This document shows, piece after piece, positions 1 through 5,524 of a DNA stretch of 5,652 nucleotides. The position numbers were made by a program, and so were the translations under genes. Position 1 is the stretch's first letter. Every line of letters starts with the position of its first letter. The notes under the pieces are model-generated. The model had not been told where the DNA came from. It ran no database searches and was given only the letters and a program-made list of their open reading frames with translations. Source of the stretch: Chloroflexota bacterium (lineage in GTDB: Bacteria > Chloroflexota > UBA6077). The stretch covers positions 1-5,652 of the forward strand of contig JAJYKO010000440.1 in assembly GCA_021788565.1 (NCBI GenBank), given 5' to 3'.

Positions 1-564
1 GGGCAGTTCGCCCTCGATGGACTGGGCCACGGCGAGCACCTCTATATTCTGGAGGATAATCGCGGCCTCGTCCTTGCCCATGACGTCCTTCTTGAAGATA
101 CCGATCACGTCCACGCGGTCGCCGGGGATTATCATGCCGCCGGCCCCGATGAGCTCGCTGGTGGTTATGGAGACGGCGCGCTTAGAGGGCGGGATAGCGA
201 AGGCCAGTCCGGCCTCCTCTCGCGCGTAGGCGAACATGTTCGGGATGATCTGCTGGCCGGCGCTGATCGGCAGCCTGGTTACCTTTCCGTCGACGTCCTT
301 CACCGCGGAATAGGCATTGGGCTGCTTGGCGGTAGCCGGCACATCCATGACCTTAACCATTGCGGTCGTGACCTTGGTACGGGTTGAGATATCCTGCGCC
401 GCGATCACCACGGGCACGCCCGGGGCCGCCTGAGGCTGGCCGGACTGGGCGGCACGCTGAGCGTTCTGCTGCACCTGCTGCATGTATGCCATGACCAGCC
501 CGGCGGCCAGGACGCCGAGCGCGATCGCGAACACCAGCACCAGTATGCTTCTTCTTCTCTTCAT
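1..564 (-). CDS. cpaB: Flp pilus assembly protein CpaB/RcpC, N-terminal part (cut by window edge)
   Basis: CpaB/RcpC is a periplasmic component of the Tad pilus secretion apparatus, thought to support the outer-membrane part of the channel. The frame stays open from the ATG to base 1, giving 188 residues of a protein usually about 250-350 long, so the C-terminus lies outside the window. Residues 1-5 (MKRRR) are basic and are followed by a membrane segment at about 7-27 and a Gln/Ala-rich linker at 28-48. A SAF-like domain spans about 50-112 (VPVVIAAQDI, then the LPISAGQQI region). The conserved CpaB core follows with LAFAIPPSKRAVSI at 120-133 and IIPGDRVDVIG at 145-155. The ATG is preceded by GGAG with a 7-base spacer. 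It lies 66 bases after the tadG-like stop, so it is probably in the same operon. The family assignment is secure; the exact role in this organism is inferred. Confidence 0.93.
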   Translation of the reverse strand, partial: MKRRRSILVLVFAIALGVLAAGLVMAYMQQVQQNAQRAAQSGQPQAAPGVPVVIAAQDISTRTKVTTAMVKVMDVPATAKQPNAYSAVKDVDGKVTRLPISAGQQIIPNMFAYAREEAGLAFAIPPSKRAVSITTSELIGAGGMIIPGDRVDVIGIFKKDVMGKDEAAIILQNIEVLAVAQSIEGELP

Positions 565-1919: not shown

Positions 1920-2330
1920 CTATTGGTTCTCGAGGCGCATTGTCGATACGCCGTAAACGCTCATGTCCCCTAGTATCGGGGCGACACTGGACACGTTGGC
2001 GGTGACCGTGACGGTTACCGTGCCGCCCGAAACCACTACTGTAGCGGGTGGGAAATCTCCCGGAAAGCCGTTGGTGTAGCTGGCTGCCACTCCCTGCACG
2101 TCCGTCGGGTAGCAAGTCAACTCGGGATGGCTGGGGATGGTCCTATCCAGACAGGTGGCGCCATAACGAGCTCCCTCCCGGGCGCCGTTGGTGGCGCCGA
2201 GCCAGGCGCCGAACAGGATCCCCCCCTCGACGATCAACGTTATGACCGTAAACAGCAGCACGAAGACCAGAGCGAACTCTACCATGGCTGCCCCTCGCTG
2301 GCCAGTTCGCCCTCGGCTGTTCCGTTTCAT
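1920..2330 (-). CDS. tadE: TadE-family pseudopilin, second copy
   Basis: Predicted 136-residue single-pass protein of the TadE/TadF type. A basic N-terminus (MKRNSRGRTGQR) leads to RGAAMVEFALV, a pseudopilin-like G|xxxxE site (G13, E18), then a hydrophobic helix at about 16-34 and the family's NGAREGARYGA block at 48-58. The rest is a beta-rich outer domain ending in a VTVTVTANV strand. C60 and C73 could form a disulfide. TadE and TadF of Aggregatibacter are pseudopilins processed by TadV; the same is inferred here from the motif. The start is uncertain. ATG 2330 gives the usual short basic leader but has only a weak SD. GTG codons at 2348 and 2354 are in frame, and GGGG lies close upstream of them. 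It lies 76 bases after the first tadE gene, whose protein it resembles. It might equally be called tadF. Confidence 0.85.
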   Translation of the reverse strand: MKRNSRGRTGQRGAAMVEFALVFVLLFTVITLIVEGGILFGAWLGATNGAREGARYGATCLDRTIPSHPELTCYPTDVQGVAASYTNGFPGDFPPATVVVSGGTVTVTVTANVSSVAPILGDMSVYGVSTMRLENQ

Positions 2331-2406
2331 GATCGCCCGTTGTTTCACAACCACAAACCCCGCCCATAATCCAGGACTCTCGGCCCTAAGGGGCCAGGCC
2401 GCAAAC

Positions 2407-3003
2407 CTACTGGTCCATGGTGGTCCACGCGCTAACCGGGAAAGTCCCGCTGGCCCCGAGAAACGGAACGAGCGGACCCGGGGCGAAGATCGCGACCTGG
2501 GCCGTGACCGCGACGGTTACAGGCCCCCCTCCGGCCGTATTGTCGACCAAAATACTGGTGATGGTAATGTCGCCACCAGGGTTGCTCAATCTGGCGCCAT
2601 AGCCAGAGTCCAAGTAGTTCGTTACCTTGCCCACGACGTATGTGGTAATGTCGCCGTCTGCGGGGCTCCACTCGATGGCGTAGCGCGCACCTTCGCGGGA
2701 AGCATTGGTGACGACCTGCCAGGCGTCGAAGATCCTCCCAAACTCCCATATCCCGAACAATAGCATCAGAAGAACGGGCGCAACAAGGACGAATTCTACC
2801 AGCGCGGCGCCGTGCTGAGCCCGGTGCGGGCGATCAATTGCGGAATCCGTAGTGGCGCTCCGTTGTGGGCGCCCTGTTTCCGCCACAGAGGAGCACCTGT
2901 CCACGCCGCTGGGCAGCCACGTTGGGCTGCCTCTCCGCGGTTTGCACAGCCCCGCGGATGGAACCCGCCCCTGAATTGTGGACCAGATGCTCAATGCTGT
3001 CAT
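2407..3003 (-). CDS. tadE: TadE-family pseudopilin, first copy, with long N-terminus
   Basis: Predicted 198-residue TadE-like protein. The recognisable part begins late, with HGAALVEFVLVAPVLL at 64-79, containing the pseudopilin site G65|A66 with E70. A membrane helix runs to about 85, followed by NASREGARYAIEW at 100-112, a beta-rich extracytoplasmic domain with VTVAVTAQV at 162-170, and a C-terminus ending in TTMDQ. The ATG is two bases after the tadV stop (TGACCATG), with GAGG 8 bases upstream, which suggests translational coupling. This start gives an unusual 64-residue, Arg- and Ser-rich extension before the cleavage site, where family members normally have about 10-20 residues. Later in-frame starts are GTG 2904 (no SD) and GTG 2886 (AGGTG 7 bases upstream). 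Even the last leaves about 25 residues, so the extension is at least partly real or marks sequence change. The family call is secure; the start is not. Confidence 0.83.
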   Translation of the reverse strand: MTALSIWSTIQGRVPSAGLCKPRRGSPTWLPSGVDRCSSVAETGRPQRSATTDSAIDRPHRAQHGAALVEFVLVAPVLLMLLFGIWEFGRIFDAWQVVTNASREGARYAIEWSPADGDITTYVVGKVTNYLDSGYGARLSNPGGDITITSILVDNTAGGGPVTVAVTAQVAIFAPGPLVPFLGASGTFPVSAWTTMDQ

Positions 3004-3005
3004 GG

Positions 3006-3557
3006 TCACAGCCTCACGAAAAGCGCGGCGACGCTGCCGGCGGCGATGGCGAGGCCGTATGGGAAGCGCAGCGGCGAGGACTTCGGATCCTTCGGCCGCG
3101 GCAGCCACCCCGTGTAAACAAGGGTCTGGAGCTGCGTCGTGACGCTCGCCACGGTGTAGCGGACCAGGCGGCGACGCACCGCCACGGCGATGGCGATGAT
3201 CCCGCCAGCAAGACCGGTGAAGACGAAGGCGTTGAACACGAATAATGGCCCCATAAGCGCGCCCACCGCCGCGAGCAGCTTGACGTCCCCCGCTCCCATA
3301 ACTCCGATGGCGAAGAAGGCGAAGAATAGCGCAGCCCCCAACGCCCAACCCGCGAGGCCACTGACCAGCCCGTCTGGCCCGCGGAAGAGAAGGCTCAACA
3401 GCAGCCCCACGGCGGCCCCACCAAGCGTGAAAGCGTTCGGAATGCGCAGGTAGCGCAGGTCGATGTAGGCCGCGGCGGCCACCATCGCGACCATGATCAC
3501 GGCCGCCGCGGCCTCCGACCCTTCTGGCATTGTGAGTTGTATGCCGTGAAGCGACAA
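3006..3557 (-). CDS. tadV: Type IV prepilin peptidase TadV/CpaA
   Basis: Membrane aspartic protease expected to cleave the leader of Flp and of the TadE-like pseudopilins at the cytoplasmic face of the inner membrane. With the TTG start it has 183 residues. The two catalytic aspartates of the prepilin peptidase family are visible: D33 in YIDLRYLRIPN (31-41) and D91 in the GxGD motif MGAGDVKL (87-94). Hydrophobic segments lie at about 16-31, 43-58, 64-86, 94-120 and the C-terminus. The methyltransferase domain of PilD is absent, as is usual for TadV/CpaA. I chose TTG 3557 because GAGGAG lies exactly 7 bases upstream; the in-frame ATG at 3530 (174 residues) has no visible SD and is the main alternative. 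The gene follows flp after 80 bases that hold a strong hairpin, and its stop nearly touches the next start. Confidence 0.93.
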   Translation of the reverse strand: MSLHGIQLTMPEGSEAAAAVIMVAMVAAAAYIDLRYLRIPNAFTLGGAAVGLLLSLLFRGPDGLVSGLAGWALGAALFFAFFAIGVMGAGDVKLLAAVGALMGPLFVFNAFVFTGLAGGIIAIAVAVRRRLVRYTVASVTTQLQTLVYTGWLPRPKDPKSSPLRFPYGLAIAAGSVAALFVRL

Positions 3558-3564
3558 CGCTACG

Positions 3565-3613
3565 CTCCTCGAGCTCGGCACCTGGGATCGAACGACCCCT
3601 GGTGCCGAGGAGA
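3565..3613 (-). promoter_or_regulatory. Hairpin between flp and tadV that can enclose the tadV SD
   Basis: On the minus strand CTCGGCACC (3601-3609) and GGTGCCGAG (3574-3582) form a perfect 9-bp stem. After one A-A mismatch it continues with GGG/CCC around a 10-base loop. CTCCTCG at its 5' foot (3606-3612) is complementary to CGAGGAG (3565-3571), which contains the SD of the TTG start at 3557. No run of U follows, so it is not a standard intrinsic terminator. It may protect the 3' end of an abundant flp message, attenuate read-through, or restrain tadV translation. The pairing is seen in the sequence; the role is inferred. Confidence 0.55.
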
Positions 3614-3637: not shown

Positions 3638-3817
3638 CTACAGGTTTGCCTGCCACTTCGCCATGAGGCTGCCCATTCCACTGAACCAGTTGCTGAGGCT
3701 GTTGGAGAAGAACCCTATGCCGACGAACACTATAGTGGCGATGAGGGTAACCAGTAAAGCATACTCAACCAGATCCGCGCCTTCTTCGTCCCGGAAGAAC
3801 CTTCGAATGATGTCCAC
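3638..3817 (-). CDS. flp: Flp-type major pilin prepilin
   Basis: Predicted 59-residue structural subunit of the Flp/Tad pilus, starting at GTG and ending at TAG. The leader MDIIRRFFRDEEG (1-13) is followed by the Flp processing motif G|xxxxEY: G13, then A14-D-L-V, with E18 and Y19. The mature protein would begin at A14 and have 46 residues. The hydrophobic polymerisation helix ALLVTLIATIVFVGIGFF spans 20-37, followed by a short polar tail with W44 and W55. Length, motif and helix are typical of Flp1 family pilins. AAGGAG 8 bases upstream fixes the GTG start. Its 215-base leader, and the hairpin directly after the gene, fit separate high-level expression of the pilin relative to the assembly genes. 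Cleavage should be by the TadV encoded next. Confidence 0.95.
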   Translation of the reverse strand: MDIIRRFFRDEEGADLVEYALLVTLIATIVFVGIGFFSNSLSNWFSGMGSLMAKWQANL

Positions 3818-4032: not shown

Positions 4033-5415
4033 CTATTCGACGTAGATCCTCTCGTCGATGAGCTTTTCCGTGACGTAGCTGCCGTTCGGGTTCAGGCTGC
4101 AGTAGCTGAACAGCTTCTCGAACTGCACGTCGACTACGTCGCGGCCGGAGCGATTCTTCTCGATACTGCACACGAGCCAGTCGTGGAGGGTCTGCGCCTT
4201 CTGTGGGTTGAACTCCAGGTGCACGCGGGAAACGGCGTCGTACTTGTCCGCCAGCATCAGGATCACGTCGGCCTCGTAGGCGAGCAACGAGCCCCCAAGG
4301 AGGTGGTGGGCGCGCATCCGCCTTGCCTTCAGCCCCTCCAGGTCGGACGCCACCACGGCAACCACCGGGATCTGCTGGGCCATGGCCATCTCCTTCAGGC
4401 CGGTCACCACCATCTCCACCTGCTCCTGCTCGCTCCGGAGCTCGGTACCCACCGGCATCTTCTGCAGGTAGTCTACGAACAGCACCAGCCGGTCGTCGCT
4501 CCGCACCCGATGCGCCTCGACGAGGGACGCGATGGCCGAGAGGGTGGCGCGATCGCCTGACCCCTTCAGGAGATGCAGCCGATCGCCGTAGACGCGCAGC
4601 CGCTCCAGAGCGACGCTGGTACGAGAATCCGCCTCCAGGAGATCGTAGAGGCCGGTCTCGCCCTGGTGGTGGGCGGCCATGATCCGCTGGGTAAGGTCGC
4701 GCACGGTCACCCCCAGGCGGAGTCCTTTGGAATCGGGATCGATGGACTCCATGGCGATCAGCCGCTGGACGAGGTTCTCCTCGTCGTGTTCGAAACAGAG
4801 ATAGAGGCAGCTCGCCTCGCCGGAGGCGGCGACGTTGCGTGCCATCTGGAGCGCCATGGTCGTCTTGCCGGTCCCCTGGGCACCGCCGAGAAGGATCAGC
4901 TCGCCCGGCCTGATGCCGCCGCCGAGGGCCTCGTCCAACGGATCGAAGCCCAGAGCCACCGGGGTCATGGTCTCCAGGTACCCCGCGGCGACCTTCTCCG
5001 CGAGGCCATCCAGAACGCCGAGCGCCGAGGTCGGGCGTACCGGTCCGGAGCTTGTCGGCACCTGCCAGGCGTCTCGGGGCTGCTGCGTTCGGTGGCGGAT
5101 TGCAGGTGTGGCGCCTGCGACACCCTCTGATCCTGTGGCCGTGTAGGGGCCGGCCGCTGTGCCGGCCCGCCCGGTCACCCCCTGGAGTGCCAACGCCGCG
5201 TCGATCTGGGCTGCGTCCAGGTAGCCGAGGCCGGTCAGGATGCGGCCGAGGAGGTAGTAGCGGTGCCTCGCGGCGAGAAACTGCTGGCGATCGAGAGCGG
5301 TCGTAACCTGCTCGGGAGTCACGACACCGGCCTCCACAAGGATCTGGCCAAGCTTGCGCTGTCCGATCCCCATGCCGCCGAAGCCGCTACCGGTCCCGCT
5401 GCCCGACTGGAACAT
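4033..5415 (-). CDS. MshEN-like domain fused to a DnaB/KaiC-type RecA-fold ATPase
   Basis: Predicted 460-residue cytoplasmic ATPase of unknown role. After a Gly/Ser-rich start, residues 21-78 hold two copies of the GspE/PilB N-terminal motif: KLGQILVEAGVV..V...L..Q (21-44) and LLGRILTGLGYL..I...L..Q (55-78). This fits the MshEN c-di-GMP-binding pattern, except that the first position is Lys rather than Arg, the second copy has T61 in a normally aliphatic position, and the spacer is 10 rather than 5 residues. A low-complexity linker covers about 80-145. The RecA core resembles the C-terminal half of DnaB: Walker A GGAQGTGKTT (177-186), E209 in CFEHDEE, Walker B VLFVDYLQKM (311-320, D315) and IEKNRSGRDVVDVQF (418-432). 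The DnaB N-terminal domain is absent, and SQLNR of DnaB is SDLEG here (357-361). An in-frame stop lies just upstream of the ATG, so this is the first ATG. Its AGGA is 13 bases away, and Met15 (5373) is an alternative. Being upstream of flp on the same strand suggests a link to the pilus. Confidence 0.8.
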   Translation of the reverse strand: MFQSGSGTGSGFGGMGIGQRKLGQILVEAGVVTPEQVTTALDRQQFLAARHRYYLLGRILTGLGYLDAAQIDAALALQGVTGRAGTAAGPYTATGSEGVAGATPAIRHRTQQPRDAWQVPTSSGPVRPTSALGVLDGLAEKVAAGYLETMTPVALGFDPLDEALGGGIRPGELILLGGAQGTGKTTMALQMARNVAASGEASCLYLCFEHDEENLVQRLIAMESIDPDSKGLRLGVTVRDLTQRIMAAHHQGETGLYDLLEADSRTSVALERLRVYGDRLHLLKGSGDRATLSAIASLVEAHRVRSDDRLVLFVDYLQKMPVGTELRSEQEQVEMVVTGLKEMAMAQQIPVVAVVASDLEGLKARRMRAHHLLGGSLLAYEADVILMLADKYDAVSRVHLEFNPQKAQTLHDWLVCSIEKNRSGRDVVDVQFEKLFSYCSLNPNGSYVTEKLIDERIYVE

Positions 5416-5455: not shown

Positions 5456-5524
5456 AAACCCGCGGGGTCTTTGGCTCCTGGTCCTGTGCTGCCGTGCCTC
5501 GATCCCCTGAGACCCCGCGGGTTT
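5456..5524. repeat. Perfect 15-bp inverted repeat upstream of the ATPase gene
   Basis: AAACCCGCGGGGTCT (5456-5470) and its exact reverse complement (5510-5524) flank 39 bases that have no strong internal pairing. Each arm holds the 8-bp palindrome CCCGCGGG. It ends 41 bases before the ATPase start and would sit in that gene's 5' leader. On both strands the second arm ends in TTT, but the long loop and short T-run make a standard terminator doubtful. Alternatives are an operator pair, a leader structure or a small mobile repeat. I found no match to a riboswitch consensus I know. Confidence 0.75.

Follow-up and report, generated by a model that had tools for sequence, protein, structure and literature searches.

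A DnaB_C-type ATPase joined to an MshEN-like domain beside Chloroflexota Tad pilus genes, and its unfused relatives

The Tad pili of Caulobacter extend and retract with a single motor, CpaF/TadA, in a manner described in 2024 as elusive (PMC11300603), and c-di-GMP changes the activity of these pili in an exact way that, according to a 2019 report, remained to be shown (PMC6581867). In the Chloroflexota, a published survey places Tad in about 1,234 of 3,780 genomes (PMC12488501). Two kinds of described protein lie close to the one considered here. The first is ArlH of the archaellum, a RecA-fold ATPase encoded beside the motor of a type IV filament machine and itself not the motor; it docks under the motor ArlI and is needed to stimulate it, and its Walker B motif is divergent, its hydrolysis of ATP being given as not shown (PMC12024892). 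The second is the group of c-di-GMP receptor domains (MshEN/GSPII) found in MshE, PilB and PilF, each built from a pair of 24-residue motifs whose key positions are Gly, Leu and Gln.

The protein described here (P0001, 460 amino acids) is encoded on the reverse strand at positions 4033..5415 of the window, by which we mean the whole stretch of 5,652 nucleotides that was analysed, and was identified as an open reading frame with matches to NF053729 and DnaB_C. Whereas ArlH is a KaiC-like hexamer, the core here is DnaB_C-like and its hexamer is a predicted one; unlike ArlH, the Chloroflexota family keeps the catalytic residues. The two motifs of MshE, PilB and PilF are present, but the core that follows is of the DnaB type instead of a secretion ATPase, and a low-confidence linker stands where MshE has its second subdomain. 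The likeness to the C-terminal domain of DnaB extends to the fold and the NTPase residues, but the DnaB N-terminal domain is replaced by MshEN or, in the unfused relatives, by nothing, and the DNA-loop and sensor-Gln motifs are replaced as well. TadA/CpaF is a T2SSE/VirB11-type ATPase, whereas the present family, a second ATPase, has a different kind of core; its gene neighbours that of TadA in one class, and we infer that the two serve the same machine.

The initial annotation knew of no described Tad component with this architecture, and our literature search, made mostly by title, likewise found no description of such a protein, which does not prove its absence from print. We put at about 0.55 the probability of a joint explanation in which the window protein is an auxiliary ATPase of the Tad (type IVc) pilus, fused to an MshE-type c-di-GMP input domain, and in which its family consists of undescribed single-domain DnaB_C-type ring ATPases of Chloroflexota that would form hexamers. 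The larger finding than the single fused gene is this ATPase family, which in another class adjoins tadA.

The N-terminal domain and the rarity of the fusion

An MshEN-like domain joined to a DnaB-type ATPase had been proposed for this gene, and the profile searches bear this out: residues 21-78 match the NCBIfam model NF053729 over model positions 1-53 of 53, with 42.4 bits against a cut-off of 38, and the DnaB_C match covers residues 153-434. The N-terminal assignment held for NF053729 but not for the Pfam MshEN/T2SSE_N family (which we take to be PF05157), which is absent among the families matched by the window protein at E ≤ 1. Two further fused proteins lie on either side of the NF053729 cut-off, P0002 passing with 39.3 and P0018 failing with 35.5.

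Both motifs lie on the reverse strand. Motif I (K-L-G ... Q, residues 21-44, 5284..5355) was placed by NF053729 and the published motif definition (PMC5013675 and PMC11731258), and motif II (L-L-G ... Q, residues 55-78, 5182..5253) by NF053729 and the alignment of fused proteins, which also defines the 10-residue spacer between them (residues 45-54, 5254..5283). The linker that follows (residues 79-152, 4960..5181) is of low confidence and variable in its middle part, with pLDDT below 50 at residues 86-114 and a mean entropy of 1.87 bits over residues 79-116. The full-length predicted model of the window protein gives the N-terminal domain four helices; a model of the isolated domain, made without an alignment, had a pTM of 0.48 and two of the helices merged, and was set aside.

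The window protein carries two copies of the pattern (R/K/L)LGxx..xxG..xxxxLxxxLxxQ, namely K21-L22-G23..Q44 and L55-L56-G57..Q78, with deviations at V37, T61, Y65 and I71. Work on Thermus PilF widens the first letter of the motif to R/K/L and reports that GSPII-B of PilF, whose motifs I and II open with K and L, respectively, binds c-di-GMP at 6 nM (PMC11731258); K21 and L55 of the window protein are the same first-position pair. Among all 16 fused proteins, the window protein included, G23, L26, L41, Q44, G57, L60, G64, L75 and Q78 are invariant, as are the spacer residues L47 and R52. The key motif positions were also better conserved than the others in these 16 proteins, with a mean entropy of 0.51 against 1.12 bits (one-sided Mann–Whitney p 0.005), or 0.37 bits (p 0.0014) when motif position 1 was left out. 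The positions tested (1, 2, 3, 10, 17, 21 and 24) were chosen from PMC5013675, in which the turn Gly, one of those used, is no ligand contact, and four hydrophobic-core positions per motif were omitted from both sets. Judged by these conserved letters, the N-terminal domain of the fused proteins likely binds c-di-GMP.

The domain might instead have kept the MshEN fold and lost the ligand, serving only as a docking module. The spacer of 10 residues, where MshE has five (PMC5013675), is the reason why we call the domain an MshEN variant, and it speaks for such a loss, as do the Pro at the first position of motif I and the Ala at its turn position 10 (each in nine of the 16 fused proteins), the score of P0018 below the NF053729 cut-off, and the precedent of Xanthomonas GspE (XpsE), given as a known non-binding case in the same paper. 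Set against this, both Gln residues, the Gly that opens each motif, one key Leu per motif and the turn Gly of motif II are invariant in all 16, and tight binding is possible with K and L as the first residues, the pair of the window protein (PMC11731258). We consider the loss of binding doubtful and prefer the reading of a c-di-GMP input domain.

The fused architecture looks rare. The ATPase part, run against about 5.8 billion proteins, returned 2122 relatives, and a search with the fused alignment returned 353; the best 120 of each were examined. In both, the first 17 entries comprise 15 full-length proteins and the fragments P0014 and P0017, which are too short to show the domain, after which the matches listed drop to proteins mostly of 355-440 amino acids. 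The motif pattern matched 16 of 121 proteins, these being the window protein and its 15 full-length relatives; 14 of them have both motif copies, and P0010 and P0011 have one. Thus, among the matches listed, the fusion amounts to 15 full-length relatives in a single clade. The tree and the 85-row alignment took in 20 of the 80 loci of the largest group (see below) and omitted L153, which is shortened by a stop; the fused proteins form one clade with support of 100/95. The row nearest to that clade is L129 (98/89), followed by P0019, although L129 is a long branch and its place as nearest relative is only provisional for that reason. By identity, the nearest unfused protein is P0019, which shares no more than 52% identity with any of the loci compared.

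Genome searches found no fused relative in 400 genomes of the phylum, nor in the classes of genomes G001 (177 genomes), G091 (29), G310 (158), G014 (110) and G015 (a sample of 249). There was no good match to the MshEN part in 183 loci (best E 0.024), and no relative in viral contigs. In two loci of the largest group, L026 and L070, the match begins from residue 6 or 19, and the early part is the end of the upstream gene and not MshEN.

Gene neighbourhoods of the ATPase family

In the window, the gene order, all on the reverse strand, is the fusion ATPase followed by flp, tadV, tadE, a second tadE, tadG and cpaB, so that the ATPase gene is upstream of the cluster. The flp pilin (59 amino acids, 3638..3817) matches PF04964 with 34.4 bits against a cut-off of 32.2. 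The prepilin peptidase gene tadV (3006..3569, PF01478, E 1.2e-17) and tadE (2407..2838, PF07811, E 3e-19) both have approximate starts; a second tadE/F-like pilin gene lies at 1920..2354 (PF07811, E 1.6e-11), and a tadG-like gene at 631..1890 matches PF13400 with 27.6 bits against 22.3. The last gene, cpaB/rcpC (1..564), is cut by the end of the window and matches TIGR03177 with 138 bits against 71. The proposed position of the gene at the head of a Tad cluster is therefore correct. A scan for promoters and terminators found no site within the gap between the ATPase gene and flp.

The ATPase without MshEN is widespread in the Chloroflexota, being carried by 104 of the 177 genomes in the class of G001. 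The largest group of loci, taken as the best 80 of 181 related stretches from a contig scan (all 42-51% identity), appears to belong to this class: ten of the 80 were traced to genomes and all ten fell in it, and the titles suggest that the class is Limnocylindria. These 80 loci share a conserved non-Tad neighbourhood, with one neighbour cluster (c1) in 72 and another (c2) in 61, which we read from their sequences as a putative FtsH and a putative M20 peptidase, respectively. Core Tad genes were found near the ATPase in none of the 80, using queries from other classes that may miss divergent Tad genes. A TadE-like match is present in four (L001, L002, L008 and L010), on the strand opposite the ATPase and about 4.1 to 7.5 kb away. 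A CpaE-like gene occurs in 18 of the 80, usually 5 to 11 called genes downstream of the ATPase, and the one representative scanned has a receiver domain and a ParA-type ATPase. One member of the group, L001, is titled Steroidobacteraceae and yet carries the Limnocylindria-type locus; it is probably a contig from a mis-assigned MAG.

Outside this group we compared 46 loci, made up of 13 matches outside the class of G001 and 33 from the class of G015. The latter class gave 42 matches, of which 34 were strong, that of G248 being already among the 13; eight weaker matches (E 7e-50 to 5e-44), from G897 and G828, were left out, as were L141-L150, shortened duplicates of L151-L160. Searches by tblastn with Tad genes as queries place Tad genes near the ATPase in 21 of these 46 non-duplicate loci, a floor because six of the 25 with no Tad gene in the stretch read are on contigs shorter than 7 kb; the rows are not independent, L164-L166 being near-identical. 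A candidate tadV at L138:10932-11648 was rejected before this count, the query having matched a protein that Pfam calls ICMT/PEMT.

The most regular arrangement is tadA followed by the ATPase gene on the same strand, found in 15 loci, all in the class of G015. In its better assembled loci the order is flp, tadE, cpaB, cpaE, tadB, tadC, a TPR protein, tadA, the ATPase, a NERD-domain protein, tadE and tadG. In 12 of the 15, the distance from the tadA stop to the first possible ATPase start is at most 60 bases, or the two overlap by at most 10; of the other three, L181 has an overlap of 20, L162 a distance of 347, and L175 is an anomaly in which the tadA frame stops early. Elsewhere, L129 resembles the window in that the ATPase gene is immediately followed by flp in the same orientation, and a receiver-domain gene stands ahead of the ATPase; L130 has the order TadA-TadB-TadC-ATPase, with 4 bases from the TadC stop to the first possible ATPase start; in L132 three genes separate the ATPase from flp, which lies downstream; and in L133, L138 and L139 the ATPase and flp are transcribed divergently.

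Several neighbouring genes recur in these loci. A NERD-domain protein of about 600 amino acids (L178:7079-8923 and relatives; Pfam was run on one protein) follows the ATPase in 10 of 11 clustered Tad loci, the exception being L163, whose contig ends at the ATPase. A TPR and PD40 protein of about 625 amino acids (L169:5349-7226 and relatives; Pfam again on one protein) lies between tadC and tadA in nine of the 11, the exceptions L162 and L181 beginning at tadA. Receiver-domain genes are next to or near the unfused ATPase in L129, L132, L133 and L139, as judged by Pfam, and in L136, as judged by a BLAST match only. In the product of L130:1452-3383, a T2SSF domain of the TadC type is joined to a von Willebrand A domain.

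In three samples that overlap in part, nearly every genome that carries the family also has a Tad marker. With p-values that overstate the association because related genomes are not independent, an RcpC/CpaB match (E ≤ 0.001) was present in 42 of the 43 genomes with the family and 181 of the 357 without it in the phylum sample (Fisher p 7e-11), a Tad marker in 8/8 and 85/150, respectively, in the class of G310 (p 0.013), and a TadA model match in 34/35 and 136/214, respectively, in the class of G015 (p 1e-5). A threshold of E ≤ 1e-70 was used for the last of these, in which no match reached the model's own cut-off; the one genome with the family that lacks such a match, G811, carries part of a TadA gene next to the ATPase where a contig ends (L183).

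These observations bear on whether the protein is a general chromosomal ATPase of the Chloroflexota, with the Tad neighbourhood a matter of old synteny or chance. The 80 loci at their conserved non-Tad site would be expected of such an ATPase, as would the absence of Tad genes from the stretch read in 25 of the other 46 loci. It accounts poorly, however, for the tadA-ATPase order common to 15 loci and for the near-confinement to Tad-marker genomes. In addition, Tad linkage turns up at five separate positions in the tree, and a minimum of five gains or losses of this label is required, compared with a mean of 19 changes when the labels are shuffled. We regard a general chromosomal role as unlikely and retain that of an auxiliary pilus ATPase. 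The expectation that homologues would tend to adjoin Tad genes is borne out, outside the largest group, by 21 of the 46 loci, and by none of the 80 within it. The proposed architecture stands, as does the suggestion of a pilus-linked auxiliary ATPase, but the earlier reading is supported only in part, because the fusion is one small clade, its Tad context comes from the window alone, no core Tad genes were found near the 80 loci of the largest group, and c-di-GMP binding, hexamer formation and the role in the pilus are predicted ones.

The ATPase core and its possible role

The RecA-fold core (residues 153-434; 4114..4959, reverse strand, as are the motifs that follow) has the DnaB_C relationship anticipated for it, with PF03796 at E 5e-23 and fold matches to DnaB. 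Its Walker A motif, GGAQGTGKT, occupies residues 177-185 (4861..4887), its Walker B motif, LVLFVD, residues 310-315 (4471..4488), and a KNR motif residues 420-422 (4150..4158), the last presumably at the position of the trans-acting finger of DnaB. K184, D315, K420 and R422, together with the Glu after strand 2, are invariant in 85/85 aligned family members. We assume the roles of these residues in NTP hydrolysis and ring assembly from those of DnaB; on that assumption, their invariance fits an active NTPase that would assemble as a ring.

The window protein is nevertheless far from the equivalog models, scoring 72.1 against a cut-off of 385.25 for DnaB (TIGR00665) and 26.4 bits against 215 for the NCBIfam ArlH model, and no DnaB N-terminal family is among the 25 families listed for it. 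In the fold comparison of the core, DnaB was closest and RadA lower in the list; no KaiC or ArlH chain is among the 50 fold matches listed by VIA-align, which excludes nothing. Motif H3 reads AADxEGL in the family and the loop before the last strand LRGSSA.YE.D, and the aligned solved DnaB chains differ at both sites, which we take to be those of the sensor-Gln and DNA-contact motifs of DnaB. In all five family groups the consensus has other letters in place of the DNA loop and the H3 Gln of DnaB, which argues against a helicase. A DNA-handling ATPase of RadA or DnaB type, processing DNA taken up through the Tad pilus in natural transformation, would suit the fold, the retained KNR finger and a study whose title links Tad pili with the uptake of DNA in Liberibacter (PMC8513845), but is improbable given the family letters at H3 and the loop before the last strand, and a site next to a pilus motor does not call for a helicase.

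The position of the ATPase gene next to tadA in one class, together with the nearby receiver-domain genes, suggests that the auxiliary ATPase is a regulated partner of TadA. It would form a hexamer that binds the TadA motor ring or platform in the manner of ArlH on ArlI, and the nucleotide state of this ring might promote or brake extension or retraction of the pilus. In the fused lineage, c-di-GMP bound between the two motifs would alter assembly or docking of the ring, and the Tad pilus would so gain the c-di-GMP control that the PilB and MshE motors get through their own N-terminal domains; NF053729 is absent among the families listed for three TadA proteins (25 of 26 families for one of them). 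A tentative wider proposal, which we hold with less confidence than the auxiliary role itself, is that in Chloroflexota Tad pili a second ring ATPase of DnaB origin, arisen separately from ArlH, partners TadA and in one lineage has become a direct c-di-GMP receptor that sets extension or retraction. A tadA-adjacent ATPase of DnaB type that has a c-di-GMP domain in one lineage would be a candidate both as partner ATPase and as direct c-di-GMP effector of these pili, and a Tad-linked ring ATPase with a c-di-GMP-type domain suggests a pilus regulator not yet described.

No c-di-GMP riboswitch or other RNA was recognized, an Rfam search giving no match at E ≤ 1. In the window, a perfect 15-nt inverted repeat with a 39-nt loop (5456-5470 and 5510-5524, fold z −3.5) lies about 40-110 bases before the ATPase start and is possibly a terminator of an upstream gene or a regulatory element.
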